From: Microbacterium faecale
GTDB lineage: Bacteria; Actinomycetota; Actinomycetes; Actinomycetales; Microbacteriaceae
DNA length: 64,000 nucleotides
Assembly: GCF_014640975.1 (NCBI RefSeq)
Contig: NZ_BMHO01000001.1
Location: 1,994,166 to 2,058,165 of the forward strand
Direction: 5' to 3'
Position 1 is the stretch's first letter, and every line of letters begins with the position of its first letter. Made by a program: the position numbers and the translations under genes. Below, in pieces: positions 16,569 to 63,996 of the stretch. Under the pieces are notes generated by a model, which was given only the letters and a program-made list of their open reading frames with translations, ran no database searches and was not told where the DNA came from.

Positions 16569-16574
16569 GATAAT
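16569..16574 (+). promoter_or_regulatory. -10 element of rpe
   Basis: GATAAT ends 6 nt before the rpe GTG at 16581. The intervening bases contain GGAGG, so either a leaderless transcript begins at GTG or an upstream start uses this Shine-Dalgarno. Confidence 0.45.
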
Positions 16575-16580
16575 GGAGGC

Positions 16581-17255
16581 GTGACCCCCATCGACGCGCC
16601 GCGCATCAACCCGAGTATTCTGTCTGCCGACTTCGTGAACATGCAGCGCGACCTCGAGCGCATCGCGTCCGCGGACTACGTGCACGTCGACGTCATGGAC
16701 AACCACTTCGTGCCGAACCTGACCTTCGGGCCCCAGATGGTCGAGCGCATCCAAGCGACGAGCCCGCTCCCGCTCGACGTACATTTGATGATCGCCGACG
16801 CCGGCCGTTGGGCCCCCGGGTACGCCGAGATCGGAGCCGCATCGGTCACGTTCCACGCCGAGGCGAGCGACGACGTCGTCGGTCTCGCACGGCGGATCCG
16901 GCAGATCGGCTCGCGCGTCGGTGTCGCGATCAAACCGGACACGCCCGCCGAACCGCTCTTCGAGCACCTCGCCGAGTTCGACCAGGTGCTCGTGATGACG
17001 GTCGAGCCCGGGTTCGGGGGCCAGAGCTTCCGGGCCGACACCATGCCGAAACTGCGGGAGTTGAAGGCCGAGGCGCGACGTCGGGGCGTCGACGTGTGGC
17101 TGCAGGTCGACGGCGGGATCTCGCTCGAGACGATCGAGCAGGCCGCCGAATCCGGCGCCGACACCTTCGTTGCCGGATCCGCGGTCTTCGGCGCCGACGA
17201 CATCGATCAGCGCATCGGCGAGCTGCGCGCTCTCGCCGCGCGCCACGTGCACTGA
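16581..17255 (+). CDS. rpe: Ribulose-phosphate 3-epimerase
   Basis: Interconverts ribulose 5-phosphate and xylulose 5-phosphate in the pentose phosphate pathway. The 224-residue TIM barrel shows INPSILSADF, the metal-binding HVDVMDNHFVPNLTFGP, DVHLMI and the phosphate-binding VEPGFGGQSF and VDGGIS. The GTG start follows GGAGGC directly. It is transcribed divergently from the membrane-anchored unknown gene and lies upstream of the his cluster, with ribose-phosphate metabolism as a plausible functional link. Confidence 0.96.
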   Translation: MTPIDAPRINPSILSADFVNMQRDLERIASADYVHVDVMDNHFVPNLTFGPQMVERIQATSPLPLDVHLMIADAGRWAPGYAEIGAASVTFHAEASDDVVGLARRIRQIGSRVGVAIKPDTPAEPLFEHLAEFDQVLVMTVEPGFGGQSFRADTMPKLRELKAEARRRGVDVWLQVDGGISLETIEQAAESGADTFVAGSAVFGADDIDQRIGELRALAARHVH

Positions 17256-17264
17256 TCGATCGGA

Positions 17265-17287
17265 TCGTGCGCGACGCTGATCGCGCG
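17265..17287 (+). terminator. Weak hairpin after rpe
   Basis: TGCGCGA, a 6-nt loop, then TCGCGCG forms a short GC-rich stem just after the rpe stop. There is no T-run. It may reduce readthrough into hisE, which has its own promoter. Confidence 0.3.
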
Positions 17288-17332
17288 ACCCCGGCTGGGA
17301 GGCCCGGCGCCTCAGCACCCGGTCGGACCCGA

Positions 17333-17338
17333 TAGCCT
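17333..17338 (+). promoter_or_regulatory. Leaderless -10 element of hisE
   Basis: TAGCCT ends exactly 6 nt before GTG 17345, and no Shine-Dalgarno lies between. This is the spacing expected when transcription starts on the start codon. Confidence 0.55.
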
Positions 17339-17344
17339 GGACCC

Positions 17345-17608
17345 GTGAAATCGTTCGAGGATCTCTTCGCCGAGCTCAGCCAGAAGGCCGCCACCCGCCC
17401 CGCGGGATCCGGGACGGTCGCCGAGCTCGATGCCGGAGTGCACACCATCGGGAAGAAGATCGTCGAAGAGGCCGCCGAGGTGTGGATGGCGGCCGAGTAC
17501 GAGACGGACGAGGCCGCGGCCGAGGAGATCTCGCAGTTGCTGTATCACCTGCAGGTGATGATGCTCGCCAAGGGCATCTCGCTCGCCGATGTGTACCGAC
17601 ATCTCTAG
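17345..17608 (+). CDS. hisE: Phosphoribosyl-ATP pyrophosphatase
   Basis: Hydrolyses PR-ATP to PR-AMP, the second step of histidine synthesis. The 87-residue length fits stand-alone HisE. The MazG-like helix signature [14 protein letters not shown] is visible, with the metal-binding glutamates, and [14 protein letters not shown] follows. It begins the cluster hisE-hisG-hisF-hisI; hisG starts 45 nt later. The start is a leaderless-type GTG. Confidence 0.95.
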
Positions 17609-17653
17609 ATCAGCCGACTCACTCCTCATACCTGATCGATCGGAAGACCACCC

Positions 17654-32367: not shown

Positions 32368-32389
32368 CAGATCATCAGGTTTCGGGTCA

Positions 32390-32395
32390 TAGGAT
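32390..32395 (+). promoter_or_regulatory. Leaderless -10 element of pdtaR
   Basis: TAGGAT is followed by 7 nt and then GTG 32403. The alternative ATG at 32394 would overlap the hexamer, so the downstream GTG is preferred. Confidence 0.5.
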
Positions 32396-32402
32396 GGGTG
32401 AC

Positions 32403-33017
32403 GTGAGCGAAGAGCAGAACGAGAACGCGGAGTCCGCGCCACGCAGAGTCGTGGTGGCCGAGGACGAGTCGCTGATCCGCATGGACATCGTCGAGATCCT
32501 GCGCGACAACGGCTTCGAGGTCGTCGGCGAGGCGGGGGATGGCGAGACGGCGGTGCAACTGGCAACCGAGTTGCGGCCTGACCTCGTCGTCATGGACGTG
32601 AAGATGCCGCAGCTGGACGGGATCACCGCAGCCGAGCAGCTGAGCCGCGACAACATCGCGCCCGTCGTCCTGCTCACGGCCTTCAGCCAGAAGGAGCTCG
32701 TCGAGCGCGCGACGGAGGCGGGTGCCCTGGCGTACGTTGTCAAGCCGTTCACGCCGAACGACCTCCTGCCCGCGATCGAGATCGCCCTGGCGCGTCACGA
32801 GCAGATCATCACGCTCGAGGCCGAGGTTCAGGACATGGTCGAGCGCTTCGAGACGCGCAAGCTCGTCGACCGGGCCAAGGGCCTCCTGAACGAGAAGATG
32901 GGCCTCAGCGAGCCGGAGGCGTTCCGCTGGATTCAGAAGGCGTCGATGGACCGTCGTCTCACCATGCAGGACGTCGCCAAGGCGATCATCGAGCAGCTCT
33001 CCCCAAAGAAGGACTGA
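32403..33017 (+). CDS. pdtaR: ANTAR-domain response regulator (PdtaR-like)
   Basis: A 204-residue two-domain protein. The receiver domain (about residues 14-130) has the acidic pair in VAEDESLIRMD, the phospho-acceptor Asp in VVMDVKMPQLDG, T in LLTAFS and K in VVKPF. The C-terminal ANTAR RNA-binding domain (about 140-200) reads RKLVDRAKGLLNEKMGLSEPEAFRWIQ. In mycobacteria the homologue works with the kinase PdtaS as an RNA-level regulator. No kinase gene is adjacent here. It lies 35 nt after tRNA-Leu. Confidence 0.93.
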   Translation: MSEEQNENAESAPRRVVVAEDESLIRMDIVEILRDNGFEVVGEAGDGETAVQLATELRPDLVVMDVKMPQLDGITAAEQLSRDNIAPVVLLTAFSQKELVERATEAGALAYVVKPFTPNDLLPAIEIALARHEQIITLEAEVQDMVERFETRKLVDRAKGLLNEKMGLSEPEAFRWIQKASMDRRLTMQDVAKAIIEQLSPKKD

Positions 33018-33566: not shown

Positions 33567-33572
33567 TACCCT
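33567..33572 (+). promoter_or_regulatory. Leaderless -10 element of polA
   Basis: TACCCT ends exactly 6 nt before GTG 33579. The bases between (ggaggg) also look like a Shine-Dalgarno, but it would be too close to the start codon to work well. Confidence 0.5.
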
Positions 33573-33578
33573 GGAGGG

Positions 33579-36203
33579 GTGACGGATCCCACGAAGCCCA
33601 CTCTGCTCATCGTCGATGGCCATTCTCTCGCGTTCCGCGCGTTCTTCGCGCTTCCGGTCGACTCGTTCCAGAATTCCGAGGGTCAGCACACCAACGGCAT
33701 CCACGGGTTCTTGTCGATGTTCCTCAACCTGTTGAAGAACGAGGCGCCCACCCACGTGGCCGTCGCCTTCGACGTGTCGGACCAGACCTTCCGCAAGGAG
33801 GAGTACCCCGAGTACAAGGATGGGCGCGACGTCACACCGCCGGAGTTCAAGGGACAGATCCCGCTGTTGAAGCAGGCGCTCGAGGCGATGAACATCACGG
33901 TGCTCGAGAAGGACGGATTCGAGGCCGATGACATCCTCGCGACGCTCGCGCGCCGCGGCACTGACGCGAACTATCGCGTGCTCGTCTGCTCGGGCGACCG
34001 TGATGCGATCCAGCTCGTCACCGACGAGGTCACCCTGCTGTATCCGTCGGTTCAGGGCGTGTCGAAGCTGAAACGATACGACCCCGCCGCGGTTGTCGAG
34101 CGCTACGGTGTGCCGCCGCACCAGTACCCGGACATCGCCGCGCTCGTCGGCGAGAAGGCCGACAACCTGCCCGGCGTGCCGAAGGTCGGGGAGAAGACGG
34201 CCGTCAAGTGGCTGACGCAGTTCGGCACGCTGGACGCGGTGATCGCCGCGGCGGAGGACATCAAGGGCGTCGTCGGTCAGAACCTGCGTGACCACATCGA
34301 CGACGTACGCCGCAACCGGCGCCTCAACCGCCTCCTCGACGACATCGACGTGCCCGTCGAGCTGCCGCAGCTCGCGGTCGACTCCGCGGATGACGCGGCC
34401 GTGCGCGACGTCTTCTCGAAGCTCGAGTTCCGCACACTGCTCAAGCGCGTGCTCGATCAGCTGGGATCCGGAACCGAGGAAGCCGTGGAACCTCGCGCCG
34501 AGACGCCGGAGGTGGCAGTGCTCGCCGCCGGCGATTTCGCGGCGTGGCTCGCGTCGACGGAGGGCACCGTGGGGATCACGGTCGACATGGCCGACGGCGT
34601 GCCTGTCCGCGTGGGCGCGGCGACGGCATCCGCGGCCGTCGAAGCGGCGTGGAGTGACGAGGTGCGCGACGCGTCCGCGACCTGGTTCGCGTCGGACGCG
34701 CCGAAATCGATGTGCGACGCGAAGGTGCAGCTCAAGGCGCTCGGCCGCACAGGCCTCGAGGTGCGGGGGGTCGTGGCCGACGCGCTGATCGCCGGATGGA
34801 TCGCGCGGCCGTCGTTCCCGGACAAGACGCTGGCCCACCTCGTCGACCGGTACCTCGGAGAGACGCTGCCGCAGGCCGATCCGAACCAGCTCGTGCCGGA
34901 GACGGAGGGCGCCTCGGCGGGCGAGTTGGCGTGGTTCACGCTGCGCGCGGCCGATGCCGTGTATGAGACGCTTCCGGATCGCGCGCGGGCGGTACTCGAC
35001 GATATCGAGATGCCGACGCTGGCGGCTCTCGCGGACATGGAGCTCGCCGGTGTCGCCGTTTCGAGCGAGAAGCTCGAGACGTTCGCCGACGAACTGCGCG
35101 AGCGGGCCGCACGCATTGCCGAGGAGGCATATGCCGAGATCGGCCGCGAGGTGAATCTCGGATCGCCGAAGCAGTTGCAGCAGGTGCTCTTCGAGGAACT
35201 CGAACTGCCCAAGACGCGCAAGACGAAGACCGGGTACACGACCGATGCCAATGCCCTCGCCGACCTGCAGGTCAAGACGGGGCATCCCTTCCTCGGCCAG
35301 CTGCTCGCGCACCGGGAGGCGACGAAGCTGACGCAGATCATCGTCGGTCTTGACGAGGCGATCGCCGAAGACGGGCGCGTCCACACGACCTACCTGCAGA
35401 CCGGTAGCCAGACGGGTCGCCTGTCGAGCACGGATCCCAACCTGCAGAACATTCCGGTCCGCAGCGAGGAGTCGCATCGCATCCGCGCGGCCTTCGAGGT
35501 CGGCGAGGGATACGAGTGCCTGCTGACGGCCGACTACTCCCAGATCGAGATGCGCATCATGGCGCACCTGTCGGCGGATCCCGGACTCATCGCCGCGTTC
35601 AACGCGGGCGAGGACCTGCACCGTTACGTCGGCGCACAGGTGTTCGGCGTCGAGCCGGACGATGTGACGAGCGAGATGCGCAGCAAGGTCAAGGCGATGT
35701 CGTACGGGCTCGTGTACGGATTGAGTGCGTTCGGACTGGCGAAACAGCTCGGCATCGAGCAGAAGGAAGCCAAGCAGCTCATGCTCGGCTACTTCGAGCG
35801 GTTCGGCGCCGTGCGCGACTACCTGCGCGCATCGGTGGAGAAGGCGCGCGAGGACGGATTCACCGAGACGATTTTCGGGCGCCGCCGACCGTTCCCCGAC
35901 CTCACGAGTCCGAACCGCGTGCTGCGCGAGAACGCCGAACGCGCGGCGCTCAACGCCCCCATCCAGGGCAGCGCGGCCGACATCATGAAGATCGCGCTGT
36001 TCCGGATCCACGATGACCTGCGCGACATGTCGTCCCGGCTGCTGCTGCAGATCCACGACGAGGTCATGGTCGAAGTCGCGCCCGGCGAATGGAACGAGGT
36101 CGAGCAGATCGTGCGCCGCCAGATGGCCGACGCGGCGGAGTTGACGGTGCCGCTCTCGGTGCAGGTCGGTCGCGGATCGACGTGGAACGAAGCCGCACAC
36201 TGA
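33579..36203 (+). CDS. polA: DNA polymerase I
   Basis: Gap-filling and repair polymerase of 874 residues. The N-terminal 5'-3' exonuclease covers about 1-300 (LLIVDGHSLAFRAFFALP, GDRDAIQLV, IAALVGEKADNLPGVPKVG). The middle region lacks the DxE proofreading motif and reads GITVDMADGVPVRVGAA, so 3'-5' exonuclease activity is probably lost, as in mycobacterial and Thermus PolA. The polymerase domain is intact: motif A LLTADYSQIEMRIMAHL, motif B RSKVKAMSYGLVYGLSAFG and motif C LLLQIHDEVMVEV. Confidence 0.96.
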   Translation: MTDPTKPTLLIVDGHSLAFRAFFALPVDSFQNSEGQHTNGIHGFLSMFLNLLKNEAPTHVAVAFDVSDQTFRKEEYPEYKDGRDVTPPEFKGQIPLLKQALEAMNITVLEKDGFEADDILATLARRGTDANYRVLVCSGDRDAIQLVTDEVTLLYPSVQGVSKLKRYDPAAVVERYGVPPHQYPDIAALVGEKADNLPGVPKVGEKTAVKWLTQFGTLDAVIAAAEDIKGVVGQNLRDHIDDVRRNRRLNRLLDDIDVPVELPQLAVDSADDAAVRDVFSKLEFRTLLKRVLDQLGSGTEEAVEPRAETPEVAVLAAGDFAAWLASTEGTVGITVDMADGVPVRVGAATASAAVEAAWSDEVRDASATWFASDAPKSMCDAKVQLKALGRTGLEVRGVVADALIAGWIARPSFPDKTLAHLVDRYLGETLPQADPNQLVPETEGASAGELAWFTLRAADAVYETLPDRARAVLDDIEMPTLAALADMELAGVAVSSEKLETFADELRERAARIAEEAYAEIGREVNLGSPKQLQQVLFEELELPKTRKTKTGYTTDANALADLQVKTGHPFLGQLLAHREATKLTQIIVGLDEAIAEDGRVHTTYLQTGSQTGRLSSTDPNLQNIPVRSEESHRIRAAFEVGEGYECLLTADYSQIEMRIMAHLSADPGLIAAFNAGEDLHRYVGAQVFGVEPDDVTSEMRSKVKAMSYGLVYGLSAFGLAKQLGIEQKEAKQLMLGYFERFGAVRDYLRASVEKAREDGFTETIFGRRRPFPDLTSPNRVLRENAERAALNAPIQGSAADIMKIALFRIHDDLRDMSSRLLLQIHDEVMVEVAPGEWNEVEQIVRRQMADAAELTVPLSVQVGRGSTWNEAAH

Positions 36204-36218: not shown

Positions 36219-36224
36219 TAGCCT
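36219..36224 (+). promoter_or_regulatory. Leaderless -10 element of the DUF885 gene
   Basis: TAGCCT lies 7 nt before ATG 36232, only 15 nt after the polA stop, with no Shine-Dalgarno between hexamer and start. Confidence 0.5.
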
Positions 36225-36231
36225 GGGCGGC

Positions 36232-37893
36232 ATGGAACAGCAGACGCGACAGACGACCCCGATCGACGCGATCGCTGAGGCATGGACTGACGAGGCGGTT
36301 CGCCTGCGTCCCGAGATCGGCACGTACATCGGCCGAAATGAGGGAGACGGGGGCTTCGGCGACCACAGTCCAGACGGTCACGATGCCATCGCGACGGCGG
36401 CGAGCGAGGTGCTCGCCCGCCTGGAGCGGGCCGAACCGCAAGACGACGTGGACCGTGTCACGAAGAGCGATCTCGCGCGAGATCTCGCCCTGGTGCAGGA
36501 GCTGCACGCCGCGAGATGGCACCTTCGGGACCTCAACGTGCTGGACAGCCCGTCGCAGGAGATCCGGCAGGTCTTCGACCTCATGCCGACCGACAGCGCC
36601 GACGACTGGGGGACGATCGCCGCGCGGCTCGGCGCCGTGCCCGACGCGGTCGACGGATACGTCCGGACGCTGCAGTGCGGCATCGCGGAGGGCGTCGTTC
36701 CTGCCGTGCGCCAAGTGCGCGAAGTCATCGCGCAGGTGCGCGACTGCGCCCGGAGCGACGGCTTCTTCGACCGGCTGATCGCCGGCGGTCATTCTCTGCC
36801 GGACAGCCTGCGTCGTGACCTCGAGCGCGGGGCGACGATGGCCCGCGAATCCTATGGCCGACTCGGCGAGTTCCTCGCGGGCACGCTGGCGCCGGCAGCC
36901 GCGCCAGAAGATGCCGTCGGGCGCGACATCTACGCCCTGCACTCGCGGGCGTTTCTCGGCGCCACGGTCGACCTCGACGAGACGTACGAGTGGGGGCTCG
37001 AAGAGCTCGCGCGGGTTCGCGAGGAGCAGGAGCGCACCGCGCGCGAGATTCTGCCGGGCGCGACCGTCGAGGAAGCGGTCGCGGCGCTGGAGAACGACCC
37101 CGCGCACCGACTCGAGGGAGCCGAGTCGCTTCGTGCATGGATGCAGGAGACGGCCGACGCGGCGATCGCCGACCTCGGCGCGACCCACTTCGACATCCCG
37201 GATCCCGTGCGTCGCATCGAATGCATGATCGCGCCGACGACCTCGGGAGAGATCTACTACACAGCGCCGAGCGAGGACTTCTCCCGTCCCGGACGCATGT
37301 GGTGGTCGATCCCGCAGGGCGTGGAGACGTTCGACACGTGGCGCGAGCTGACGACCGTGTACCACGAGGGCGTGCCGGGACATCACCTGCAGATCGGGCA
37401 GGCCGTCTATAACCGCGACCAGCTCAACAGCTGGCGACGGCTGCTCGCTGGCAGCTCGGGGCACGCCGAAGGCTGGGCCCTCTACGCGGAGCGGCTGATG
37501 GCCGAGTTGGGCTACCTCGACGACCCGGCGCCACGCCTGGGCATGCTCGACGGGCAGCGTCTGCGCGCCGCGCGTGTCGTGGTGGACATCGGCGTGCACC
37601 TCGGCAAGCGGCGTCCGGACGGCGGTGGGGCGTGGGATGCGGCATCAGCGCTCGACGCGATGCGCCGCAACGTGAACATGGCCGACGAGTTCATCGTGTT
37701 CGAGGTGAATCGGTACCTGGGGTGGCCGGGACAGGCTCCCTCCTACAAGGTCGGGCAGCGCATCTGGGAGGATCTGCGGACTGCCGTGGCCGAGCGCGAA
37801 GGGGACGCATTCTCCATGCGCGCCTTCCATCGGCGCGCCCTGGATCTCGGCGGAGTCGGCCTCGACACCCTGCGAGAGGCTCTGCTCGGCTGA
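36232..37893 (+). CDS. DUF885 family zinc metallopeptidase-like protein
   Basis: A 553-residue cytoplasmic protein with no signal peptide. The family zinc motif HEGVPGHH lies near residue 378, preceded by TTVYHEG. A downstream glutamate ligand is likely in GHAEGWALYAERLM. Family members are M3/M2-like peptidases with few characterised substrates. It is transcribed after polA from its own leaderless-type promoter and followed 44 nt later by niaP. The function is predicted from the motif only. Confidence 0.88.
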   Translation: MEQQTRQTTPIDAIAEAWTDEAVRLRPEIGTYIGRNEGDGGFGDHSPDGHDAIATAASEVLARLERAEPQDDVDRVTKSDLARDLALVQELHAARWHLRDLNVLDSPSQEIRQVFDLMPTDSADDWGTIAARLGAVPDAVDGYVRTLQCGIAEGVVPAVRQVREVIAQVRDCARSDGFFDRLIAGGHSLPDSLRRDLERGATMARESYGRLGEFLAGTLAPAAAPEDAVGRDIYALHSRAFLGATVDLDETYEWGLEELARVREEQERTAREILPGATVEEAVAALENDPAHRLEGAESLRAWMQETADAAIADLGATHFDIPDPVRRIECMIAPTTSGEIYYTAPSEDFSRPGRMWWSIPQGVETFDTWRELTTVYHEGVPGHHLQIGQAVYNRDQLNSWRRLLAGSSGHAEGWALYAERLMAELGYLDDPAPRLGMLDGQRLRAARVVVDIGVHLGKRRPDGGGAWDAASALDAMRRNVNMADEFIVFEVNRYLGWPGQAPSYKVGQRIWEDLRTAVAEREGDAFSMRAFHRRALDLGGVGLDTLREALLG

Positions 37894-37901: not shown

Positions 37902-37931
37902 TTGCGCTAAAGGTCATAATGACATTAATCT
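37902..37931 (+). promoter_or_regulatory. niaP promoter with overlapping palindromic operators
   Basis: A possible -35 TTGCGC (37902) and -10 TAATCT (37926-37931) are 18 nt apart, and the -10 ends 6 nt before GTG 37938. Two 5-1-5 palindromes overlap in between: GTCATAATGAC (37913-37923) and TAATGACATTA (37917-37927). The second covers the first bases of the -10, as expected for a repressor site. Confidence 0.6.
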
Positions 37932-37937
37932 GGCGCA

Positions 37938-40137: not shown

Positions 40138-40143
40138 GAAATC

Positions 40144-40149
40144 AGTCTA
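40144..40149 (-). promoter_or_regulatory. Leaderless -10 element of the SGNH gene
   Basis: TAGACT on the minus strand, 6 nt before GTG 40137. It is divergent to the luciferase-like gene, whose -10 lies about 30 nt away. Confidence 0.55.
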
Positions 40150-41715: not shown

Positions 41716-41721
41716 CCACCG

Positions 41722-41727
41722 ATCCTA
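41722..41727 (-). promoter_or_regulatory. Leaderless -10 element of the small membrane protein gene
   Basis: TAGGAT on the minus strand, 6 nt before GTG 41715. Confidence 0.55.
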
Positions 41728-42307: not shown

Positions 42308-42349
42308 GTCGACTACGGTAAGACCTGACATCAATGTGAGGGGCAAGTG
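42308..42349. promoter_or_regulatory. Shared 42-nt divergent control region (VOC/MerR)
   Basis: Both genes start from this short space, so their promoters must overlap each other or the coding ends. GTC...GAC half-sites (GTCGACTACGGTAAGAC, 42308-42324) could be an operator. I cannot assign -10 and -35 boxes with confidence. Confidence 0.35.
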
Positions 42350-49976: not shown

Positions 49977-49982
49977 TATGCT
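49977..49982 (+). promoter_or_regulatory. Leaderless -10 element of the DUF1992 gene
   Basis: TATGCT, exactly 6 nt before ATG 49989, with no Shine-Dalgarno. Confidence 0.6.
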
Positions 49983-49988
49983 GACGGC

Positions 49989-50549
49989 ATGTCGGATCCG
50001 CGTGCAGACGCTGCGCGATACCGCGCGGAACGAGACGGAGAGTCCGAAGAGCAGCACACCGGACCGCCGCAGTGGACGACGCGCGAAGAGCGGATCTCGG
50101 CGGTCGAAGCGTCGATTCAGCTGGCGATGCGCCGCGGTGAGTTCGACAACCTGCCGGGCGCGGGCAAGCCGATCGACGGGCTTGACGGGGGACATGACCC
50201 TGACTGGTGGATTCGGCGGAAGATCGAGCGCGAGAATCTCACGGGTCTGGCACCGCCGGCGATCCAATTGCGAAACGAACACCGTGCAATGGAGGCCACG
50301 CTCGATGAGTTCTCGCGCGAAGAGGACGTGCGAGCCCACCTCGAGGAGTTCAACCGCCGCGTCAAGCGGGCGCGGATGCAGTTGGAGGGCGGACCGCCCG
50401 TGGTGACGCCGCTACACGACGTCGACGACGACCTTCGGGCGTGGCGGGATCGGCGCGCGGCGCGACGCGAGCGGGTCACCGAGGAACAGCGACCCAGCGC
50501 GGTCCCGAGGCGCGGGTGGCGCCGCCGATGGCTCGGCGGCGCGCGCTGA
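49989..50549 (+). CDS. DUF1992 (DnaJ-homologue subfamily C member 28-like) protein
   Basis: A 186-residue soluble protein with the family core REERISAVEASIQLAMRRGEFDNLPGAGKPI, of which EFDNLPGAGKPI is diagnostic, followed by WWIRRKIERENL. No J-domain HPD motif is present despite the family name. A basic C-terminus (RRGWRRRWLGGAR) could bind nucleic acid or membrane. Function unknown. It stands alone behind a leaderless-type promoter. Confidence 0.9.
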   Translation: MSDPRADAARYRAERDGESEEQHTGPPQWTTREERISAVEASIQLAMRRGEFDNLPGAGKPIDGLDGGHDPDWWIRRKIERENLTGLAPPAIQLRNEHRAMEATLDEFSREEDVRAHLEEFNRRVKRARMQLEGGPPVVTPLHDVDDDLRAWRDRRAARRERVTEEQRPSAVPRRGWRRRWLGGAR

Positions 50550-50572: not shown

Positions 50573-50578
50573 TACGCT
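50573..50578 (+). promoter_or_regulatory. Leaderless -10 element of the lipoprotein gene
   Basis: TACGCT, exactly 6 nt before ATG 50585. Confidence 0.6.
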
Positions 50579-50584
50579 GACGCG

Positions 50585-51034
50585 ATGTCGAGATCCCTTG
50601 CGTTCCCGGTCCTGGCCGTCGCCGCCGTCATCCTCGCAGGATGCGCGAGCGAGCCGACCCAAGACGAATCGGATGACTGGTTCGCGTCGATCTCCGAGCG
50701 TCCGCCGATGTCCGACACAGACTTCGGCACGGGGGCTCAGGTGGGTGCGGAGCCGAACGGCGCGTCCTTCGACTGGACGGAGGAGCCGACCGACATCGCG
50801 GTGATCCGTGCGGCATGCCTCGGGGACGGGCATCGCGCGACAATCGCGTGGGAGATCACGACGGACGCCGAGGCGGACGGCCCGACCGGCGCCTCGGAGG
50901 AGGTCGAGTGCACGGGCGACTTCGTCGACCTGTCGTCGACCGCCGACGGGATGGCGGACGTCGCGAGCATCTCAGTCATGATGAGCTCCGACGGCGAGCA
51001 GATCCCGGTCGCGTTCTCGATCCTCACGGGCTGA
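50585..51034 (+). CDS. Secreted lipoprotein of unknown function
   Basis: A 149-residue protein with a type II signal peptide: MSRSLAFPVLAVAAVILAGC, lipobox LAGC with Cys20. The mature protein is acidic (CASEPTQDESDDW onward), with two further cysteines (RAACLG and EVECTG) that may form a disulfide. It should be lipidated by Lgt (encoded at 23442) and face the outside. No domain is recognised. The 3' end converges on hrpB 13 nt later. Confidence 0.86.
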   Translation: MSRSLAFPVLAVAAVILAGCASEPTQDESDDWFASISERPPMSDTDFGTGAQVGAEPNGASFDWTEEPTDIAVIRAACLGDGHRATIAWEITTDAEADGPTGASEEVECTGDFVDLSSTADGMADVASISVMMSSDGEQIPVAFSILTG

Positions 51035-53862: not shown

Positions 53863-53868
53863 TACGAT
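53863..53868 (+). promoter_or_regulatory. Leaderless -10 element of the second luciferase-like gene
   Basis: TACGAT, exactly 6 nt before ATG 53875. This decides the start against an ATG 30 nt upstream, which lies before the hexamer. Confidence 0.55.
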
Positions 53869-53874
53869 GGCGAC

Positions 53875-54672
53875 ATGCCTCTCCTCGACACACCGGTGCG
53901 CCTCGGCGTGCAGATCCAGCCCCAGCACCATTCGTCCTACTCCGCGATGCGCGACGCCGCGCAGCGATGCGAGGACATGGGGGTCGACATCCTCTTCAAC
54001 TGGGACCACTTCGTCCCGCTCACGGGAGACCCCGACGGGACGCACTTCGAGGCGTGGACGGTGCTTGCCGCGTGGGCTGAGCAGACCGAGCGGATCGAGC
54101 TCGGCACGCTCGTGAACTGCAACGCCTACCGGAACGCCGACCTCCAGGCGGACATGGCGCGCACGATCGATCACATCTCGGCCCGGGACGGCGAGGGGCG
54201 CTTCCTCTTCGCGACGGGCTCGGGGTGGTTTGAGCGCGATTTCGACGAGTACGGGTACGAGTTCGGCACGGCCGGATCTCGTCTCGACGCCCTCGCCGAC
54301 GCATTGCCGCGGATCGAGGCTCGCTGGGAGGTGCTGAACCCCGCTCCGACGCGCCGGATACCGGTCATGATCGGAGGAGCGGGCGAGAAGAAGACACTGC
54401 GGCTCGTGGCGCGGCACGCCGACATCTGGCACAGCTTCGCGGGGCCGGACACACTGCCGCACAAGCTCGACGTGATCTCGCGGTGGGCAGACACCGACGG
54501 CAACGACGCGTCACGTCTGGTGATCTCGAACGAGCTCCGCGGGAAGGGCGTGGAAGAGGCCGACGCGCTCTACGACGCCGGCGTGCGCCTGTTCACGCTG
54601 GGCGTCTCGGGCGACGACGTCGACCTGGACGCGATCCAGCGCTGGCTCGACTGGCGCGACAGCAAGAACTGA
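53875..54672 (+). CDS. LLM-class F420-dependent oxidoreductase (probable)
   Basis: A 265-residue luciferase-like TIM-barrel protein: VRLGVQIQPQHHSSY at the start, FNWDHFVPLTGDPDG, LGTLVNCNAYRNADLQADMART and FATGSGWFERDFDEYG. The last two are typical of the F420-dependent subgroup common in actinobacteria. The substrate is unknown. Start ATG 53875 (MPLLDTPV) is chosen on promoter spacing. It is not closely similar to the other luciferase-like gene at 40191. Confidence 0.88.
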   Translation: MPLLDTPVRLGVQIQPQHHSSYSAMRDAAQRCEDMGVDILFNWDHFVPLTGDPDGTHFEAWTVLAAWAEQTERIELGTLVNCNAYRNADLQADMARTIDHISARDGEGRFLFATGSGWFERDFDEYGYEFGTAGSRLDALADALPRIEARWEVLNPAPTRRIPVMIGGAGEKKTLRLVARHADIWHSFAGPDTLPHKLDVISRWADTDGNDASRLVISNELRGKGVEEADALYDAGVRLFTLGVSGDDVDLDAIQRWLDWRDSKN

Positions 54673-55719: not shown

Positions 55720-56493
55720 TCACGTCGCGCCGACGACGAGGAGCAACGTTGTCCCGTTCAGCCGCACCGTGTCGCCGAGCGTCGGGGCCAACGCCGAGAA
55801 CAGCTCGTCGCGCACGCTCTGATCGGTGATCGCATAGCTTGAAATCGTGCCGAGAAGCCGCAGATAGCCGGCGGCCGACATCTCGTGATCCCAGGCATAC
55901 GAGCGGCGGTCCGCGAGGTGCACGTCGGGATGCGCGTCGATCTCTCCGTCGGCCCACATGCGGGAGACGAGATCGCGCGGGAGATCCGGCGGCAGGTCGG
56001 GCGCTTTCTCTCCGTACACGGCGGTCACCGCGTCGAGGTCGTGATGGGCCGGGTCGAGGCTCCACGCGTTCCAGAAGAGGAAGGCGTGTCCATCGGATCC
56101 GAGCAGCGAGGCAAGGCGGCTCCATCGCGTTTCGGGGTCGGTCCAGTGGAACGACTGCGCGGCGACGACGGATTCGTAGGTCCCGTTCGGAGCCACGTCC
56201 TCGAACGTCGCCTTCCGCACGGTGACGCGGGAGGCGACGCCCTCGTGCTGGAGGCGACGCGTGAGCACGGCGATCATGTCGTTCGACGGTTCGACGGCAT
56301 CCACGCGCGCGCCGCGTCGGGCGAGCTCGACCGTCGCGCGGCCGGTGCCCGCGCCGACATCGAGGATCCGCGCGCTCCAGGGGTGGCCGGCGATGCGAGC
56401 GATGTCGTCGAAGAGCGCGGGAGGATACGGCGGGCGAAACGCCTCGTAGGCGTCGGCGCCGTTCTCGAACGATCGGGCGAGTGCGCTGGTCAC
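55720..56493 (-). CDS. Class I SAM-dependent methyltransferase
   Basis: A 257-residue methyltransferase with motif I ILDVGAGTGRATVELARRG (about residues 43-61), the acidic loop VDAVEPSNDM, and AQSFHWTDPE, typical of the UbiE/Coq5-like group. The substrate cannot be inferred. The GTG start at 56493 is exactly 6 nt after TACGAT. It is divergent from the HNH gene. Confidence 0.88.
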   Translation of the reverse strand: MTSALARSFENGADAYEAFRPPYPPALFDDIARIAGHPWSARILDVGAGTGRATVELARRGARVDAVEPSNDMIAVLTRRLQHEGVASRVTVRKATFEDVAPNGTYESVVAAQSFHWTDPETRWSRLASLLGSDGHAFLFWNAWSLDPAHHDLDAVTAVYGEKAPDLPPDLPRDLVSRMWADGEIDAHPDVHLADRRSYAWDHEMSAAGYLRLLGTISSYAITDQSVRDELFSALAPTLGDTVRLNGTTLLLVVGAT

Positions 56494-56499
56494 GTGACG

Positions 56500-56505
56500 A
56501 TCGTA
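56500..56505 (-). promoter_or_regulatory. Leaderless -10 element of the methyltransferase gene
   Basis: TACGAT on the minus strand, 6 nt before GTG 56493. It is identical to the hexamer at 53863 in front of the second luciferase-like gene. Confidence 0.55.
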
Positions 56506-56549: not shown

Positions 56550-56555
56550 TAGCGT
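56550..56555 (+). promoter_or_regulatory. Leaderless -10 element of the HNH gene
   Basis: TAGCGT, exactly 6 nt before ATG 56562. The same hexamer at the same distance precedes the broken acetyltransferase at 62795. Confidence 0.55.
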
Positions 56556-56561
56556 GAGCAC

Positions 56562-58283
56562 ATGGCACAGAAGACGCACGCGGACGAGGTGGCGGGGTTC
56601 AGTCCCGAACAGCTCGACGCGGCGCGCCGTCTCGTCGATCGGATCGTCCGCGGACGAACCGAGATCGCTCGCATCGAGGCAGAGATCCTGCGTGCGATGA
56701 CGGAGCTCGCTGACATCGCGCATGAGGCAGGGCGCGAGGCGCCGACATCCGACGGCCCCGAGTACACACGCCGGGCGATGGCGGCCGAGGTCGCCGCCGC
56801 GACGCGCGTGCACCCACAGACGGCGCGGGCGCAGATGGAAGACGCCGAGCGAATCACGCAGGACTATCCCCAGACGCTCCGCTCCCTCGAGCAGGGGTGT
56901 GTTTCGCTGTCTCACGCCCGCGTCATCGCTGACGCGGGGCGCAACCTCGAGCCGGGCGCTCGCGCGTCCCTCGACGCATGCGCGGTGCCGTTCGCCGAGA
57001 CACGCACGCCAGGGGAGCTGCGCCGCATCACGCGCAAACAGGCGGTCGACCTCCAGACGTCATCGCCGCGCGAGCGGCACGAGGTTGCACGGCGCGACCG
57101 CCGAGTCTCGCTCACCGAGCTCGACGACGGCATGAGTGAGCTCAACGTCGTCGCCCCGACATTCGAGGTGCGCACACTGTATGACCGCCTGACGACGATG
57201 GCGAGGCGGGTGAAGATGGATCGGCGTCGTGCGCGAAGCGCATTCATCCGCGAGCACGGGCGCACGCCGGAGGAGATGGTGGCGGGCCCCGGGTATGAAA
57301 GCCCCTCGGGAACGCCCGGCGAGTCCCGTCGGTCCTCACTATCGGGCGATTTCTCACCGTCGGGCAATGCAGCACAGGCCGAAGGGCCGACGGCAACCCG
57401 AGGTTCCGTGGGGTCCGTCACGCAGCTGACCGGCCTCGCTGACGGCCTCGCGCGCGCCGATGTCGGAGCGAGCGACGTTCGTACGTTCGACCAGCTGCGC
57501 GCCGACATTCTCTGCGACCTCGTGCTGACGGCCGCACCGACAGGGCATGAGCTCCACGCATCCGACACGACGGAGGCCCTGCGCAACGTGGCCGCGAACG
57601 TGCAGGTCACGATTCCTGTCGAACAGCTGCTCGATCCGGACTCGGGCGCGAGCTGGGTTGACGACGGAGCGCTGATCTCTCCCCAAACGGCGCGTGCGGT
57701 CGCGGCCGAGGCACCGGGTTGGGACCGCCTGTTCATCCGACCGGAAAGCGGCGAGGTCGTCGCGGTCGATCGTTACAGACCGTCTTCGGAACAAAGACGC
57801 ATGCTGCGCGCACGAGATATGACGTGCCGGTTTCCCGGGTGCACGACGACCGCGCGACGCAGCGACATCGACCATTCGCACGACTATGCCCGTGGCGGGC
57901 CGACCGCGGTCGAGAACCTCAGCGTGCTCTGCGAGTCGCACCACACCGTCAAGCACGTCTCCGGTTGGACGCCCGTGCAGCTCGGCGGCGGGCTGATCGA
58001 GTGGTTCAGCCCGCTGGGATACACCTATCGTGATGAGCCGCGAAGTTGTGCGTTCTTCCGCGACACGGTCGCGCGCGAGTCTGGGCGCAGTGAGCGGCTC
58101 AGTGGTGGCGAGAACGCACGGCGCGCGCATCGCGAACGACGGCGTGAGCGTCAGCGTGCCGACGAACGTCGCGCCGAGGAAAGGTCTCTCGCTGATGAAC
58201 AGCGCGCCGACCGACTCGCGGAAGTGAGCTCGCCCCCGCCGTTGTGGCAATTCGACTGGGATGGCGAGAACGGACGCAGCTGA
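56562..58283 (+). CDS. DUF222 and HNH endonuclease domain protein
   Basis: A 573-residue protein of a family that is highly multiplied in actinobacteria. DUF222 covers roughly residues 20-330 and includes a low-complexity Ser/Gly linker near 245-285. The HNH nuclease module is near 425-475, with CRFPGCTTTARRSDIDHSHDY and LCESHHTVKH supplying the zinc Cys and the catalytic His. The C-terminus is very charged (RRAHRERRRERQRADERRAEE), probably helical. The biological role of the family is uncertain; some copies are thought to be mobile. Confidence 0.92.
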   Translation: MAQKTHADEVAGFSPEQLDAARRLVDRIVRGRTEIARIEAEILRAMTELADIAHEAGREAPTSDGPEYTRRAMAAEVAAATRVHPQTARAQMEDAERITQDYPQTLRSLEQGCVSLSHARVIADAGRNLEPGARASLDACAVPFAETRTPGELRRITRKQAVDLQTSSPRERHEVARRDRRVSLTELDDGMSELNVVAPTFEVRTLYDRLTTMARRVKMDRRRARSAFIREHGRTPEEMVAGPGYESPSGTPGESRRSSLSGDFSPSGNAAQAEGPTATRGSVGSVTQLTGLADGLARADVGASDVRTFDQLRADILCDLVLTAAPTGHELHASDTTEALRNVAANVQVTIPVEQLLDPDSGASWVDDGALISPQTARAVAAEAPGWDRLFIRPESGEVVAVDRYRPSSEQRRMLRARDMTCRFPGCTTTARRSDIDHSHDYARGGPTAVENLSVLCESHHTVKHVSGWTPVQLGGGLIEWFSPLGYTYRDEPRSCAFFRDTVARESGRSERLSGGENARRAHRERRRERQRADERRAEERSLADEQRADRLAEVSSPPPLWQFDWDGENGRS

Positions 58284-58450
58284 TGTTCCGATGGCCGCGC
58301 CCCGAAGTCCTGCGGGTGTTTCCGCCCCGCGCGCTCGTCGGAGCCCTCTCGCACCTGCGTCGCCGCGCTCCCGCACACTCGTCGCGGATTCCGCACGTTC
58401 ACCCTTGTGCGACGATCGCCAGCCGGGCACGCCGCACGTAGTCTGACGCT
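58284..58450 (+). other. Intergenic gap before the alpha/beta hydrolase
   Basis: 167 nt with no supported gene. TCGTCGC (58379) and GCGACGA (58409) could pair across a long loop, a weak terminator candidate for the HNH gene. The hydrolase -10 lies at its end. Confidence 0.35.
58439..58444 (+). promoter_or_regulatory. Leaderless -10 element of the alpha/beta hydrolase gene
   Basis: TAGTCT, exactly 6 nt before ATG 58451. Confidence 0.55.
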
Positions 58451-59557
58451 ATGGAAGCCTCGGCAGACTGGGTCCCCGACGTCTTGGGCGACGAGTTCGA
58501 GCAACTGACGCTCCCTCTCGGATCCGATGACGAGGGTGTCGTCGTCGCGACACTCGTGCGCGCCGTGCCGTCGACGGAGCGCGGCACGCCCGAAGGGTCG
58601 GCACCGAGCGACAATACGCGTGCGGCGCCCTGGTGGCGACGCCTCGCGGATCGCGCGCGGGAGATTTTCGGCGCAGGAGCGGAACCTCGTCCCGATCCGT
58701 TCGAGGACGTCGATGTCCTCTATGTGCATGGCTGGTCGGACTACTTTTTCCAGAAACGACTCGCCCGCACCTTCACGTCGCGAGGCGCCCGCTTTTACGC
58801 CCTCGACCTTCGCAAATACGGCCGAAGTCTGCGCGACGGACAGACCCCGGGGTTCGTGACGACGCTCGACACCTACGATGAGGACATCGCGGCTGCCCTC
58901 GCCGCGATGGGCTGGGATCCGTCCGCGCCGCGCACAGACCGGCGCCTCGTTCTCTTCGGCCATTCGACCGGTGGTCTCACGCTGAGCCTGTGGGCGTCGC
59001 GCCACCCCCGCGTCGCGAGCGCCATTATTCTGAACAGCCCGTGGCTGGAGTTCCACCTCAACGGGCGTCGGCGCACCGCGATCGCCCCGCTCGTCGACCT
59101 GCAGGCGCGGCATCGCCCGATGGATCGCGCGCCGCAAGTCGATCTCGGCTTCTACACGCGCGCGCAAGACGAGGTGGCCGACCCCGCCGATCCCGTCGAG
59201 GTGAACCTCGACTGGCGCCCCGAACGTGCGATGACGGTGTACGCCGGCTGGCTCGATGCCGTGCTCGACGGCCATGCCCTCGTTGCAAAGGGTCTCGCGA
59301 TCGATGCGCCCATCTGCGTGCTGCTTTCGGCGCGCTGGGAAGCCCCGATCCGATGGTCCGAGTCGCTCACCGAGGTCGACTCCGTTCTCGTCGTCGACGA
59401 CATCGCGCGCGCCGCTTTGAATCTCGGCCCCGTGGTGACCATCTGCCGCATCGATGGCGCGCTTCACGATGTGTTCCTCTCGCAGCGCGCCGCGCGCGAG
59501 ACCGCCTACCGGATCCTCGGGGAGTGGGTCGATCGCGTCCTTACGCCGCGAACGTGA
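58451..59557 (+). CDS. Alpha/beta-hydrolase (lysophospholipase-like)
   Basis: A 368-residue soluble hydrolase. The nucleophile elbow is LFGHSTGGLT, the oxyanion region is VLYVHGWSDYFFQ, and the final catalytic His is probably in RIDGALHDVFLS. The N-terminal ~75 residues are a variable extension. It resembles serine aminopeptidase S33/lysophospholipase-like proteins; the substrate is unknown. Its last 17 nt overlap the remnant HAD reading frame on the other strand. Confidence 0.88.
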   Translation: MEASADWVPDVLGDEFEQLTLPLGSDDEGVVVATLVRAVPSTERGTPEGSAPSDNTRAAPWWRRLADRAREIFGAGAEPRPDPFEDVDVLYVHGWSDYFFQKRLARTFTSRGARFYALDLRKYGRSLRDGQTPGFVTTLDTYDEDIAAALAAMGWDPSAPRTDRRLVLFGHSTGGLTLSLWASRHPRVASAIILNSPWLEFHLNGRRRTAIAPLVDLQARHRPMDRAPQVDLGFYTRAQDEVADPADPVEVNLDWRPERAMTVYAGWLDAVLDGHALVAKGLAIDAPICVLLSARWEAPIRWSESLTEVDSVLVVDDIARAALNLGPVVTICRIDGALHDVFLSQRAARETAYRILGEWVDRVLTPRT

Positions 59558-60953: not shown

Positions 60954-60959
60954 TACCGT
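60954..60959 (+). promoter_or_regulatory. Leaderless -10 element of the Nudix-PAP2-GNAT operon
   Basis: TACCGT, exactly 6 nt before GTG 60966. Confidence 0.55.
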
Positions 60960-60965
60960 GTTGTC

Positions 60966-61505
60966 GTGACCGACGAGATCTGGGATCTGTGCGACCGAGA
61001 TGGGCGCCCGACGGGTGAGCATCATCGGCGGGGGACGCCGTTGCCACCCGGGCTCTTCCACATCGTCGCGAGCGTCGCCGCGGTGAGCCCCGATGGCCGT
61101 ATGCTCCTGACGCAGCGCGCCGCCTCGAAGACTCACGCGCTGGACTGGGAGATTCCGGCGGGGAGCGCTCTCGCGGGAGAAGCCAGCGAAGAAGCCGCGA
61201 TCCGAGAGCTCGCCGAAGAGACCGGCATCACCGTCCCGACCGCCGATCTCGTCCTCGTCGGCCGCTTCGTCGAGGCCTCCGCCCTGTTCGACCTCTACGT
61301 CGTCCGCGTCGAACGAGACACGATTCTCGACCCCGACCCCAGCGAGGTCGTCGACACCGCGTGGTCGACTCTCGACGAACTTGATGCTCACGTCGCCGGC
61401 GCGACGATCGCCGCGCCCTGGGTCCCGCGGCTCGCTGAACTGCGCACGCCGCTCGGTCGCGCTGTGGCGCGCATCGCTCCGCCGACCGTCACAATGGACG
61501 GATGA
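60966..61505 (+). CDS. Nudix hydrolase
   Basis: A 179-residue protein carrying an intact Nudix box: GSALAGEASEEAAI followed by RELAEETGI, which fits G-x5-E-x7-R-E-U-x-E-E-x-G-U. The N-terminal WDLCDRDGRPTGEHHRRG resembles isopentenyl-diphosphate isomerase and the YfcD-like subgroup, so the substrate may not be a nucleotide. It is the first gene of a three-gene unit with ATGA overlaps to the PAP2 and GNAT genes. Confidence 0.91.
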   Translation: MTDEIWDLCDRDGRPTGEHHRRGTPLPPGLFHIVASVAAVSPDGRMLLTQRAASKTHALDWEIPAGSALAGEASEEAAIRELAEETGITVPTADLVLVGRFVEASALFDLYVVRVERDTILDPDPSEVVDTAWSTLDELDAHVAGATIAAPWVPRLAELRTPLGRAVARIAPPTVTMDG

Positions 61506-62146: not shown

Positions 62147-62739
62147 CACGCATTCGCCCATTCCAGCCCGGCGACGAACCCGCCCTCGCGGAGATCTGCG
62201 TCCGCACCGCCGATGCGGGGGCGGACGCCACGGGGATCCTTGCCGACGACCGCCTCTGGGGTGATCTCTTCGTACTGCCGTATGTGGCACGGCACCCGGA
62301 GCTGGCGTGGGTCGTCGAGGCCGACGACCGCCGCGTGATCGGATACATCGTCGCCACGGACGACACCGACGCGTTCGAACGCTGGTTCCGCGACGAATGG
62401 TGGCCGACGCACGCGGGCCGGTACGAAAGGACCGGCGCGCGGCAGTCCGAGTTGGTGCCGTCCGGCGACAAGCGCGGGCCCGGACGCATCGCCCACGCCG
62501 GTGAGTACCCCGCGCACCTGCACATCGACCTCCTGCCGGAAGCGCAAGGGGCCGGTCTCGGACGCCGCCTCATCGAAATGCTCCTCGGTGCACTGTCGCA
62601 CCGTGGCGTGCCCGGGTTACATCTCGGCGTGGATCCGCTCAACACCGGCGCGGCCGCGTTCTACGAACGCCTCGGGTTCGCGCGCCTGCCAACGGACGCG
62701 GGATCCGTCACGTACGCCATGCGGATCCCGGAGCACTGA
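62143..62739 (+). CDS. GNAT-family N-acetyltransferase
   Basis: A 198-residue acetyltransferase. It opens with TRIRPFQPGDEPALAEICVRTADAG (TRIRPFQPGDEPALAEIC), has the CoA-binding loop AQGAGLGRRLIEMLL, and VDPLNTGAAAFYERLGF near the C-terminus. It resembles the O-GlcNAcase-associated or tabtoxin-like GNAT group in size and in its long middle insert. The substrate is unknown. It is the last gene of the Nudix-PAP2 unit, with an ATGA overlap. Confidence 0.9.
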   Translation: MTRIRPFQPGDEPALAEICVRTADAGADATGILADDRLWGDLFVLPYVARHPELAWVVEADDRRVIGYIVATDDTDAFERWFRDEWWPTHAGRYERTGARQSELVPSGDKRGPGRIAHAGEYPAHLHIDLLPEAQGAGLGRRLIEMLLGALSHRGVPGLHLGVDPLNTGAAAFYERLGFARLPTDAGSVTYAMRIPEH

Positions 62740-62782
62740 GGCCGAGCTGACCTCAGCTGGAATCGTCCTGTCGCGCGTCCAC

Positions 62783-62788
62783 TAGCGT
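62783..62788 (+). promoter_or_regulatory. Leaderless -10 element of the broken GNAT gene
   Basis: TAGCGT, exactly 6 nt before ATG 62795, which supports that ATG as the real start of the interrupted gene. Confidence 0.55.
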
Positions 62789-62794
62789 GTCGAT

Positions 62795-63292
62795 ATGACG
62801 TTCACCGTGCGCCGCATCGAAACCGCCGACTGACGAGAATTTCGCGAGATCCGGTTGCGCATGCTCGCCGATACGCCGATCGCGTTCGGTGAGACGCTCG
62901 CGCACGCCCGCGTGCTGGAGGATGACGAGTGGAGGGCGCGTGCGGCGCGGAACACCGAGGGCACGAATATCGGGCTCGCCGCGGTCGATGAGGTGGGGAC
63001 CTGGCTCGGAGTCATGCGCGGATACGTCGACGCACGGGATGGAGCGATGCTCGTCGGTGTCTTCGTGGATCCGGCTTCGAGGGGCCACCACGAAGGCGTC
63101 GCCGACGCGCTGCTCGACGGGATCGTCGAATGGGCCGCCGCGCACGGAGACGCCTTAACGCTGCACGTGCACACCGCCAACCCCCGCGCGATCGCGTTCT
63201 ACGCGCGCCGCGGATTCGTCGACACGGGGCGCACGGTGGAGTACCAGCTCCCGCCATATGGCCTCGAGAACGAGATGCGCCTCGCGATCTGA
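62795..63292 (+). pseudogene. GNAT-family N-acetyltransferase interrupted by an in-frame TGA at codon 13
   Basis: From ATG 62795 the frame reads MTFTVRRIETAD, then TGA (62831-62833), then REFREIRLRMLADTPIAFGE in the same frame to the end. Homologues have Trp in the TADW-like position, so one G to A change (TGG to TGA) explains the break. The rest is intact: GVFVDPASRGHHEGVADALL is the CoA loop and ANPRAIAFYARRGFVDTG the C-terminal motif. Its leaderless-type promoter is also intact. It may be a recent pseudogene, a sequence error, or read through; internal TTG 62855 or ATG 62861 could give a shortened protein. Confidence 0.8.
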
Positions 63293-63366
63293 GCGCCCGA
63301 GGTCAGCGTGGGCGCGCCGGTCGTGTGCACGATTGTGGGCACGGTGCACGGTCGCTGGCAACGCGG

Positions 63367-63372
63367 CATCAT
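63367..63372 (+). promoter_or_regulatory. Leaderless -10 element of the nitroreductase gene
   Basis: CATCAT, exactly 6 nt before ATG 63379. Confidence 0.4.
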
Positions 63373-63378
63373 GGACCG

Positions 63379-63996
63379 ATGGCAGACTTCACACGGCTCC
63401 CGGAACCGTCCCGCGATGATGATGTCGCCCGCGTTCTTCGTGCGCGACGGTCGACGAAGACCTTCTCCGCGGATCCGCTCGACCTGACGAGCATCTCGGC
63501 CGTCCTGTTCGCGACCGGCGGGTCGGTCTCGGGGAGGCGACTGATCCCCTCGGCGCGCGCCACGGATCCGGTGCACCTCACGCTTGTCGCGGGAGACGTC
63601 GACGGCCTCGCGACGGGTGTGTATCTGTACGTCGCGGAGAGTCACGCCCTTCAGATGGTCAGCGACGCGGATGTGCGGCACTGGATCGCCGGCGCGACCC
63701 TGGACGCGCCGTGGGTTGCGACGTGCCCCGGCCTCATCCTGCTGTCGGCCGACCTCGTTGCCGCACGGCGGCGCTTCCCTGACCAGCCCGCGGAGCACGG
63801 GGAGCGTTTCGTCTGGATCGAGACCGGCCACGCTGCGCAGAACGCGTACCTGACCGCAGCGAATCAGGGCCTCGGCACGGTGCTGATCGCTGGCCTCGAC
63901 GATGATCGCGCGGAGGAGACGACCTCCGGCGTCATTCCGGAGGGACACCGTCTTCTCGGCGTGCTTCCGCTCGGGTTCGCGGGGGAGATGTCATAG
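63379..63996 (+). CDS. Nitroreductase family protein (SagB-like)
   Basis: A 205-residue FMN-binding fold. The FMN phosphate site is in RRSTKTFSADPLDLTSISAVL (RRSTKTFSADPLDL), GVYLYVAESHAL is central, and the C-terminal GHAAQNAYLTAANQGLGTVLIAG (GHAAQNAYLTAANQGLG) is typical of SagB-type nitroreductases. Most stand-alone members are of unknown substrate; no thiazole/oxazole peptide cluster is visible here. The stop falls 4 nt before the window end. Confidence 0.9.
   Translation: MADFTRLPEPSRDDDVARVLRARRSTKTFSADPLDLTSISAVLFATGGSVSGRRLIPSARATDPVHLTLVAGDVDGLATGVYLYVAESHALQMVSDADVRHWIAGATLDAPWVATCPGLILLSADLVAARRRFPDQPAEHGERFVWIETGHAAQNAYLTAANQGLGTVLIAGLDDDRAEETTSGVIPEGHRLLGVLPLGFAGEMS

Follow-up and report, generated by a model that had tools for sequence, protein, structure and literature searches.

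Do the TANNNT hexamers that stand a few nucleotides (nt) upstream of start codons in the genome of Microbacterium faecale mark promoters whose transcripts begin at the start codon itself? The question is raised by a 64,000-nt stretch of its DNA (the window), positions 1994166-2058165 of contig C1 in an assembly of 3.12 Mb and 4 contigs, for which an original prediction had proposed about twenty leaderless genes sharing a fixed 6-nt spacing between a -10 hexamer and the start codon. That the TANNNT sites of these genes are leaderless promoters has, in our estimate, a probability of roughly 94%, and about one gene in eight appears to yield an mRNA that begins exactly at its start codon. Five features of the DNA point this way: the peak in hexamer position, the lack of a Shine-Dalgarno excess, a purine anchored to the -10, the exclusion of purines from earlier potential starts, and conservation among orthologs; from them we infer where the mRNAs begin, which sigma factor is used and how translation is started.

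A scan of TANNNT at each offset from the start codons, in which a peak at 6 nt had been anticipated, gave a sharp one. Genes were called in the window plus 40 stretches of 20 kb (864 kb) by our own coding-score script, which is blind to promoter and Shine-Dalgarno signals and penalises TTG starts; 746 or 748 of 773 genes were kept, depending on the analysis, after those near a stretch end or without a start codon had been dropped. Among 746 genes, TANNNT occurs 6, 7 and 8 nt before the start in 58, 24 and 9 cases, while every other offset gives 0-5 (from 0 to 25 nt) or 1-6 (from 26 to 39 nt). When the 40 nt preceding each called start were dinucleotide-shuffled 200 times, the count at 6 nt had a mean of 2.4 and never exceeded 8, and variant hexamer patterns showed either no peak or a far weaker one. 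Out-of-frame RTG triplets (ATG or GTG), checked in a smaller, earlier sample of 464 kb, had the hexamer at 6 nt in 0/590 and 0/343 cases. In total, 91 of the 746 genes (12%) are strict leaderless candidates at their called starts, about 86 of them above background, with 68 ATG and 23 GTG codons. This share may be slightly too low: at 6 nt GANNNT is found 24 times against about 10 expected per offset and CANNNT 12 times against about 6, neither rising at 7-8 nt, and in 35 further genes of the 864-kb sample a strict TANNNT site stands before a different in-frame start, in some of them by chance. Counted across the whole genome irrespective of annotation, TANNNT at 6 nt before ATG occurs 334 times against 126 for the reversed pattern, and in all 39 genus genomes, our own included, such ATG sites exceed the reversed pattern by about 1.8- to 4-fold. 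Across the phylum (118 genomes, our own included) the ATG counts at 6 nt are mixed, some being near the control (258 against 271 in G039, for example) and some high (119 against 14 in G142), and no claim here rests on them.

The hexamer lies where a ribosome-binding site would sit, and one may argue that it is a translation-initiation signal, or a composition effect near starts, on mRNAs with ordinary leaders. We give this explanation almost no credence. TANNNT is unlike the complement of the 16S tail present in the genome (tail pattern GGCTGGATCACCTCCTTTCT, which occurs there once), and genes with TANNNT are at background Shine-Dalgarno energy, the median duplex value being -4.7 for the 91 leaderless candidates, -7.4 for the 620 others and -4.9 for background. 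Moreover, the shuffles do not reproduce the peak, variant patterns do so much more weakly or not at all, and the purine that follows the -10, together with the exclusion of purines from earlier starts (both described below), are properties of promoters. These energies bear out, as a signal and not as an absolute division, the proposal that leaderless genes form a class apart from Shine-Dalgarno-led ones.

The position of the leaderless candidates in transcription units can be judged by a distance proxy only, in which a first-position gene is one that is divergent from, or more than 40 nt away from, its upstream neighbour on the same strand. By this measure leaderless genes are enriched at first positions and rare inside operons, with 14/263 at internal positions (within 40 nt), 14/106 at distances of 41-100 nt, 13/137 beyond 100 nt and 49/230 at divergent starts. 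The original prediction had contrasted leaderless monocistrons with Shine-Dalgarno-led operons; however, among first-position genes by the same proxy, 49 leaderless genes stand alone and 18 head an operon, compared with 261 and 113 of the others (Fisher p=0.66). Since leaderless genes head operons as often as other first genes do, the label "monocistrons" is not supported, and "leaderless first genes" should be used instead.

The spacing, foreseen as fixed or near-invariant at 6 nt, is instead a steep series. For 2000 genes of the genus, summed here and in the pooled counts below from three sets (our own genome, relatives and a confirmation set of new stretches from 20 genus genomes already sampled earlier, so that the genes are new and the genomes are not), TANNNT stands at 5, 6, 7, 8 and 9 nt in 5, 206, 63, 17 and 14 cases, where the flanks predict about 3.8 per offset. 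After background correction the shares at 5/6/7/8 nt are 0.4/73/21/5%, and at 6/7/8 nt they are 66/26/8% in our own genome and 82/14/3% in the confirmation set. In Escherichia coli, a study of start selection places the modal transcription start at 7 bp below the -10 and describes a strong preference for a purine at the start; positions 6-9 are used, and their shares are 3/70/23/4% as predicted from energetics and 8/55/29/7% as observed (PMC5730371). The genus shares at 5-8 nt resemble those E. coli shares at positions 6-9, one position being the spacer plus the first base of the start codon.

This resemblance fits a simple mechanism. The housekeeping sigma holoenzyme would recognise the -10 TANNNT without a -35 consensus, in most cases followed two bases further down by a purine, and RNA synthesis would begin at whichever purine comes first at 7 bp or more below the -10. 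Evolution would have made this base the A or G of the start codon; the mRNA would then open with 5'-AUG or 5'-GUG, and its translation would do without a Shine-Dalgarno sequence. A start codon behind a 6-nt spacer would itself occupy the preferred start position; with a 7- or 8-nt spacer the intervening base or bases would be kept pyrimidine, which would prevent an early start and a leader of 1-2 nt. If start codons sit on the polymerase start, it follows that a 7-nt spacer must not carry a purine right before the start codon.

Such purines are indeed rare. In the pooled genus data, a purine 7 bp below the -10 is found in 5/63 genes with 7-nt spacing, compared with 76/206 at the same place before the start in 6-nt genes; with 8-nt spacing, where the 7-bp position falls at -2, the counts are 2/17 versus 142/206. 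Taking one gene per protein family from the pooled exploratory and new data gives 4/61 versus 68/184 at 7 nt (p=1.5e-6) and 2/16 versus 125/184 at 8 nt (p=1.9e-5). The 7-nt rule had emerged from the exploratory data (4/46 versus 38/115) and was written down before the new data were seen; it held in the confirmation set, with 1/17 versus 38/91 in 6-nt genes (p=0.005) and versus 225/600 in genes without TANNNT (p=0.008). In 11 genomes from outside the family, purines precede the start in 0/10 of the 7-nt genes and in 129/252 of the genes without TANNNT (p=0.002). One may also ask whether the pyrimidine at 7-nt spacing merely reflects a general preference for pyrimidines just upstream of a transcription start, as described for E. 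coli (PMC5730371), and not the avoidance of a competing start. As the sole cause we regard such a preference as an appreciable but minor possibility, as purines are tolerated before the start in 6-nt genes, not only in the pooled set but also in polA (93/97) and in DUF885 genes (26/39), and 8-nt genes mostly exclude them at -2 as well. At 7 nt the two causes may add up.

A second purine is anchored to the hexamer itself. The base two positions below the -10 is a purine in 176/206, 51/63 and 16/17 genes with 6-, 7- and 8-nt spacing (three genus sets summed), while a purine at -5 occurs in only 35/63 of the 7-nt genes; genes without TANNNT at 5-9 nt have one in 921/1695 cases at -5 and in 1031/1695 at -6 (54-61%). 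This purine keeps its distance to the -10 rather than to the start codon, an indication of a real promoter; the base may contact sigma region 1.2. Upstream of the -10 of 286 leaderless genes we found no convincing excess of TTG or TTGAC at spacers of 12-23 nt (the highest TTG count was 4 observed versus 1.2 expected, at 21 nt) and no excess of an extended -10 (10 seen versus 17.7 expected).

Transcription might also begin 1-5 nt upstream of the start codon, giving mRNAs with very short leaders that are not truly leaderless. TANNNT is found at 9 nt in 14 of the 2000 genes against about 4 expected, without the pyrimidine rule, and in two DUF885 relatives the hexamer lies 10 nt away. Nevertheless, the position series and the exclusion of purines at 6-8 nt put the start on the RTG, so that as a general account short leaders are very improbable, though they may exist for a minority of genes. 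At 9 nt the rule is absent, 0/14 genes being free of purines between the 7-bp position and the start codon, as is expected from the published range limit of start positions.

Orthologs of three window genes were compared. The DUF885 protein of the window, whose closest relatives among the matches listed are from Microbacterium with at most 72% identity, belongs to a family in which TANNNT stands 6 nt (39) or 7 nt (36) from the aligned or a nearby in-frame ATG at 75 of 80 ortholog loci. The base before the ATG is a pyrimidine in 35/36 of the 7-nt loci and 13/39 of the 6-nt loci (p=1.7e-9, kinship ignored). On a protein tree (a quick version without a mixture model, with the window gene included, so that 36/37 of the 7-nt loci have the pyrimidine), the spacing changed between 6 and 7 nt 15 times or more. 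The supported branches yield 12 independent pairs, and in these the base changed the same way in about 7.7, the opposite way in 0 and not at all in 4.3 (median sign p=0.008). In polA, TANNNT precedes a GTG by 6 nt (97) or 7 nt (2) at 99 of 99 scorable loci out of 101 (our own included, some species twice, 73 distinct upstream sequences), whereas control scans of these loci at eight shifted anchors found 0/778. For pdtaR, 22 of 22 scorable orthologs out of 29, our own included, have it at 6 nt (19) or 7 nt (3), all before GTG. More generally, of 28 ortholog pairs in which one or both genes are leaderless, both are so in 20.

These patterns make it probable, in our view, that the start codon also serves to initiate transcription, that selection acts with single-nucleotide precision against leaders of 1-2 nt, and that spacing and the preceding base or bases co-evolve (pyrimidine at 7 and 8 nt, free at 6 nt), repeatedly so within one ortholog family. 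The coupling is expected from the rules of the polymerase; here it would appear as an evolved and repeated pattern.

The leaderless start codon also differs from gene to gene: it is GTG in polA (99/99 scorable) and pdtaR (22/22) and ATG in DUF885 (75/75), over loci that include L021-L100 and L211-L240. The choice seems to be gene-specific. That AUG or GUG is in addition selected for ATP- or GTP-dependent initiation is unlikely, and a general pair test gave it no support: where a pair has a GTG, it is kept in 6/9 pairs with both members leaderless, 8/16 with neither and 1/4 with one, pairs that are too few and not independent.

RTG is the start codon of every leaderless gene at 6 nt (206/206) and 7 nt (63/63), yet TTG is also rare in other genes (19/1688) and is penalised by the caller. 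An annotation-free count of TANNNT-N6-TTG in the 864 kb gives a small rise, 19 at 6 nt against 5-16 elsewhere, contrary to the expectation that leaderless genes do not begin with TTG. It is one of several observations that weigh against reading these sites as leaderless promoters. The whole-genome GTG count at 6 nt (203) lies below its reversed-pattern control (351), which we thought poorly matched for GTG; compared with neighbouring offsets in the 864 kb, GTG does peak, with 45 at 6 nt and 20-37 at other offsets from 0 to 24 nt. A Shine-Dalgarno word of at least 4 bases precedes 25% of the leaderless candidates (64% of the others). The purine exclusion is also uneven among subsets. At 7 nt it is not significant in the first relatives set alone (3/22 versus 19/56, p=0.096), nor in the other families when set against their own 6-nt genes (0/10 versus 4/14, p=0.11); at 8 nt it is not significant in the confirmation set (1/5 versus 59/91, p=0.064), and the single 8-nt gene of the other families breaks it (purine in 1/1). 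Likewise, the purine two bases below the -10 is not clear in the other families (9/14, 7/10 and 0/1 at 6, 7 and 8 nt), and the confirmation set, taken by itself, has it in 12/17 of its 7-nt genes, little above the background of 342/600. Finally, 5 of the 80 DUF885 loci have no site at 6 or 7 nt, and in the two that are closest by protein to the window gene among those listed (L021 and L022), TANNNT lies 10 nt from the aligned ATG, not 7, an arrangement that suggests a short leader.

Within the window itself, ten hexamers that had been quoted by coordinate are all present there, each exactly 6 nt from its RTG, and the 7-nt spacing given for pdtaR (an ANTAR response regulator) and the DUF885 gene is likewise confirmed. 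Strict TANNNT at 6-8 nt is found at 13 called genes (10 at 6 nt, 3 at 7 nt and 0 at 8 nt), to which the two uncalled open reading frames (ORFs) at 49989, which has a Pfam match, and 41715 may be added along with 62795 (Table 1). This is fewer than the "about twenty" genes originally estimated, a number that requires the addition of weaker NANNNT sites with 6-nt spacing, judged by eye, at 16581, 55682 (minus strand), 61502 and 63379; lgt at 23442 has a spacing of 9 nt. An annotation-free count of TANNNT-Nk-RTG in the window gives 15 at k=6 and 0-7 at every other k from 0 to 20.

Table 1. Candidate leaderless starts with strict TANNNT in the window; positions run from the hexamer through the start codon.
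Gene or product	Positions	Strand	-10	Spacing (nt)	Start	Remark
PRA-PH, hisE-like	17333..17347	+	TAGCCT	6	GTG 17345	
pdtaR-like ANTAR regulator	32390..32405	+	TAGGAT	7	GTG 32403	C precedes start
polA	33567..33581	+	TACCCT	6	GTG 33579	
DUF885	36219..36234	+	TAGCCT	7	ATG 36232	C precedes start
MFS/sugar transporter	37926..37940	+	TAATCT	6	GTG 37938	
GDSL lipase/acylhydrolase	40135..40149	-	TAGACT	6	GTG 40137	coding-score start 9 nt downstream
141-aa ORF, doubtful gene	41713..41727	-	TAGGAT	6	GTG 41715	no Pfam match, uncalled as coding
Glyoxalase-like	42305..42320	-	TACCGT	7	ATG 42307	third 7-nt case; C precedes start; coding-score start 60 nt downstream
DnaJ C28 conserved domain	49977..49991	+	TATGCT	6	ATG 49989	ORF overlooked by gene caller
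149-aa protein	50573..50587	+	TACGCT	6	ATG 50585	no Pfam match
Luciferase-like monooxygenase	53863..53877	+	TACGAT	6	ATG 53875	
Methyltransferase	56491..56505	-	TACGAT	6	GTG 56493	divergent from 56562
DUF222	56550..56564	+	TAGCGT	6	ATG 56562	
Alpha/beta hydrolase	58439..58453	+	TAGTCT	6	ATG 58451	
NUDIX	60954..60968	+	TACCGT	6	GTG 60966	
Short ORF ahead of GNAT ORF	62783..62797	+	TAGCGT	6	ATG 62795	in-frame TGA at codon 13

The start-codon rule is useful for correcting naive starts, as had been claimed: for the NUDIX gene, whose coding-score start lies at 61101, it selects a GTG 135 nt further upstream and restores the N-terminal part of the domain, which would otherwise be cut. At 62795 the hexamer and its 6-nt spacing are present as described, but the frame opens for only 12 codons. 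This region (62795-63292, plus strand) thus combines a well-formed leaderless start, a TGA at codon 13 and, still in frame beyond it, a GNAT domain. The gene may be broken, the sequence may contain an error, or initiation may take place further downstream. Both -10 elements of the divergent pair at 56493 (minus strand) and 56562 (plus strand) lie inside one 68-bp intergenic region. A tRNA-Leu (CAA) gene (32285-32368, plus strand) ends 21 nt upstream of the pdtaR -10 (32390-32395).

Several implications follow if these sites are leaderless promoters. They would extend a well-known actinobacterial mode of expression to Microbacterium, and they offer a rule, readable from sequence alone, for likely true starts, namely that the RTG supplies the first purine found at 7 bp or more below the -10 and lies within 9 bp. 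This rule may distinguish truly leaderless starts from short-leader ones and helps start-codon annotation in high-GC genomes, and it turns the required exactness of a 5'-terminal start codon into a comparative test. The phenomenon itself is known, since TA-led or leaderless genes with TANNNT at such a position have been published (PMC3160421, PMC3898074, PMC3890552). What would be new beyond the known kind is the one-nucleotide coupling of spacing and the base flanking the start codon. Neither for this coupling nor for leaderless transcription in Microbacterium or its family was a report recognised among the papers listed in a literature search, which is weak evidence of absence as subscription journals fell mostly outside it.

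Comparison with known systems places the Microbacterium genes very probably among them. TA-led genes of Actinobacteria have TANNNT about 12 bp upstream, counted from its first T, make up about 20% of genes and are read as leaderless; across genomes, the proportion of operon-distal genes correlates positively with Shine-Dalgarno-led and negatively with TA-led genes (PMC3160421). That survey classifies genes by 20-bp upstream windows, and its accessible parts make no mention of a coupling between spacing and intervening base (PMC3160421). In Corynebacterium glutamicum 33% are leaderless, with AUG at about 79% and GUG at about 21% (PMC3890552), compared with 68 ATG and 23 GTG among the 91 candidates here. 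The likeness to Mycobacterium tuberculosis lies in TANNNT without a -35 consensus, although there an SRN consensus precedes TANNNT in 49% of cases (PMC3898074), and in mycobacteria an RTG at the 5' end is both necessary and sufficient (PMC4633059). The C. glutamicum and M. tuberculosis data are mapped 5' ends (PMC3890552, PMC3898074), whereas our case is built on DNA sequence. In Deinococcus-Thermus, another phylum, the motif has the same placement: a -10-like element about 6-7 bp upstream of the ORF acts as a promoter, and nearly one third of D. radiodurans genes are concerned (PMC12340547). Finally, the E. coli rules of start selection were derived from mapped starts (PMC5730371), whereas here the same rules can apparently be read from the evolved start codons of an actinobacterium.

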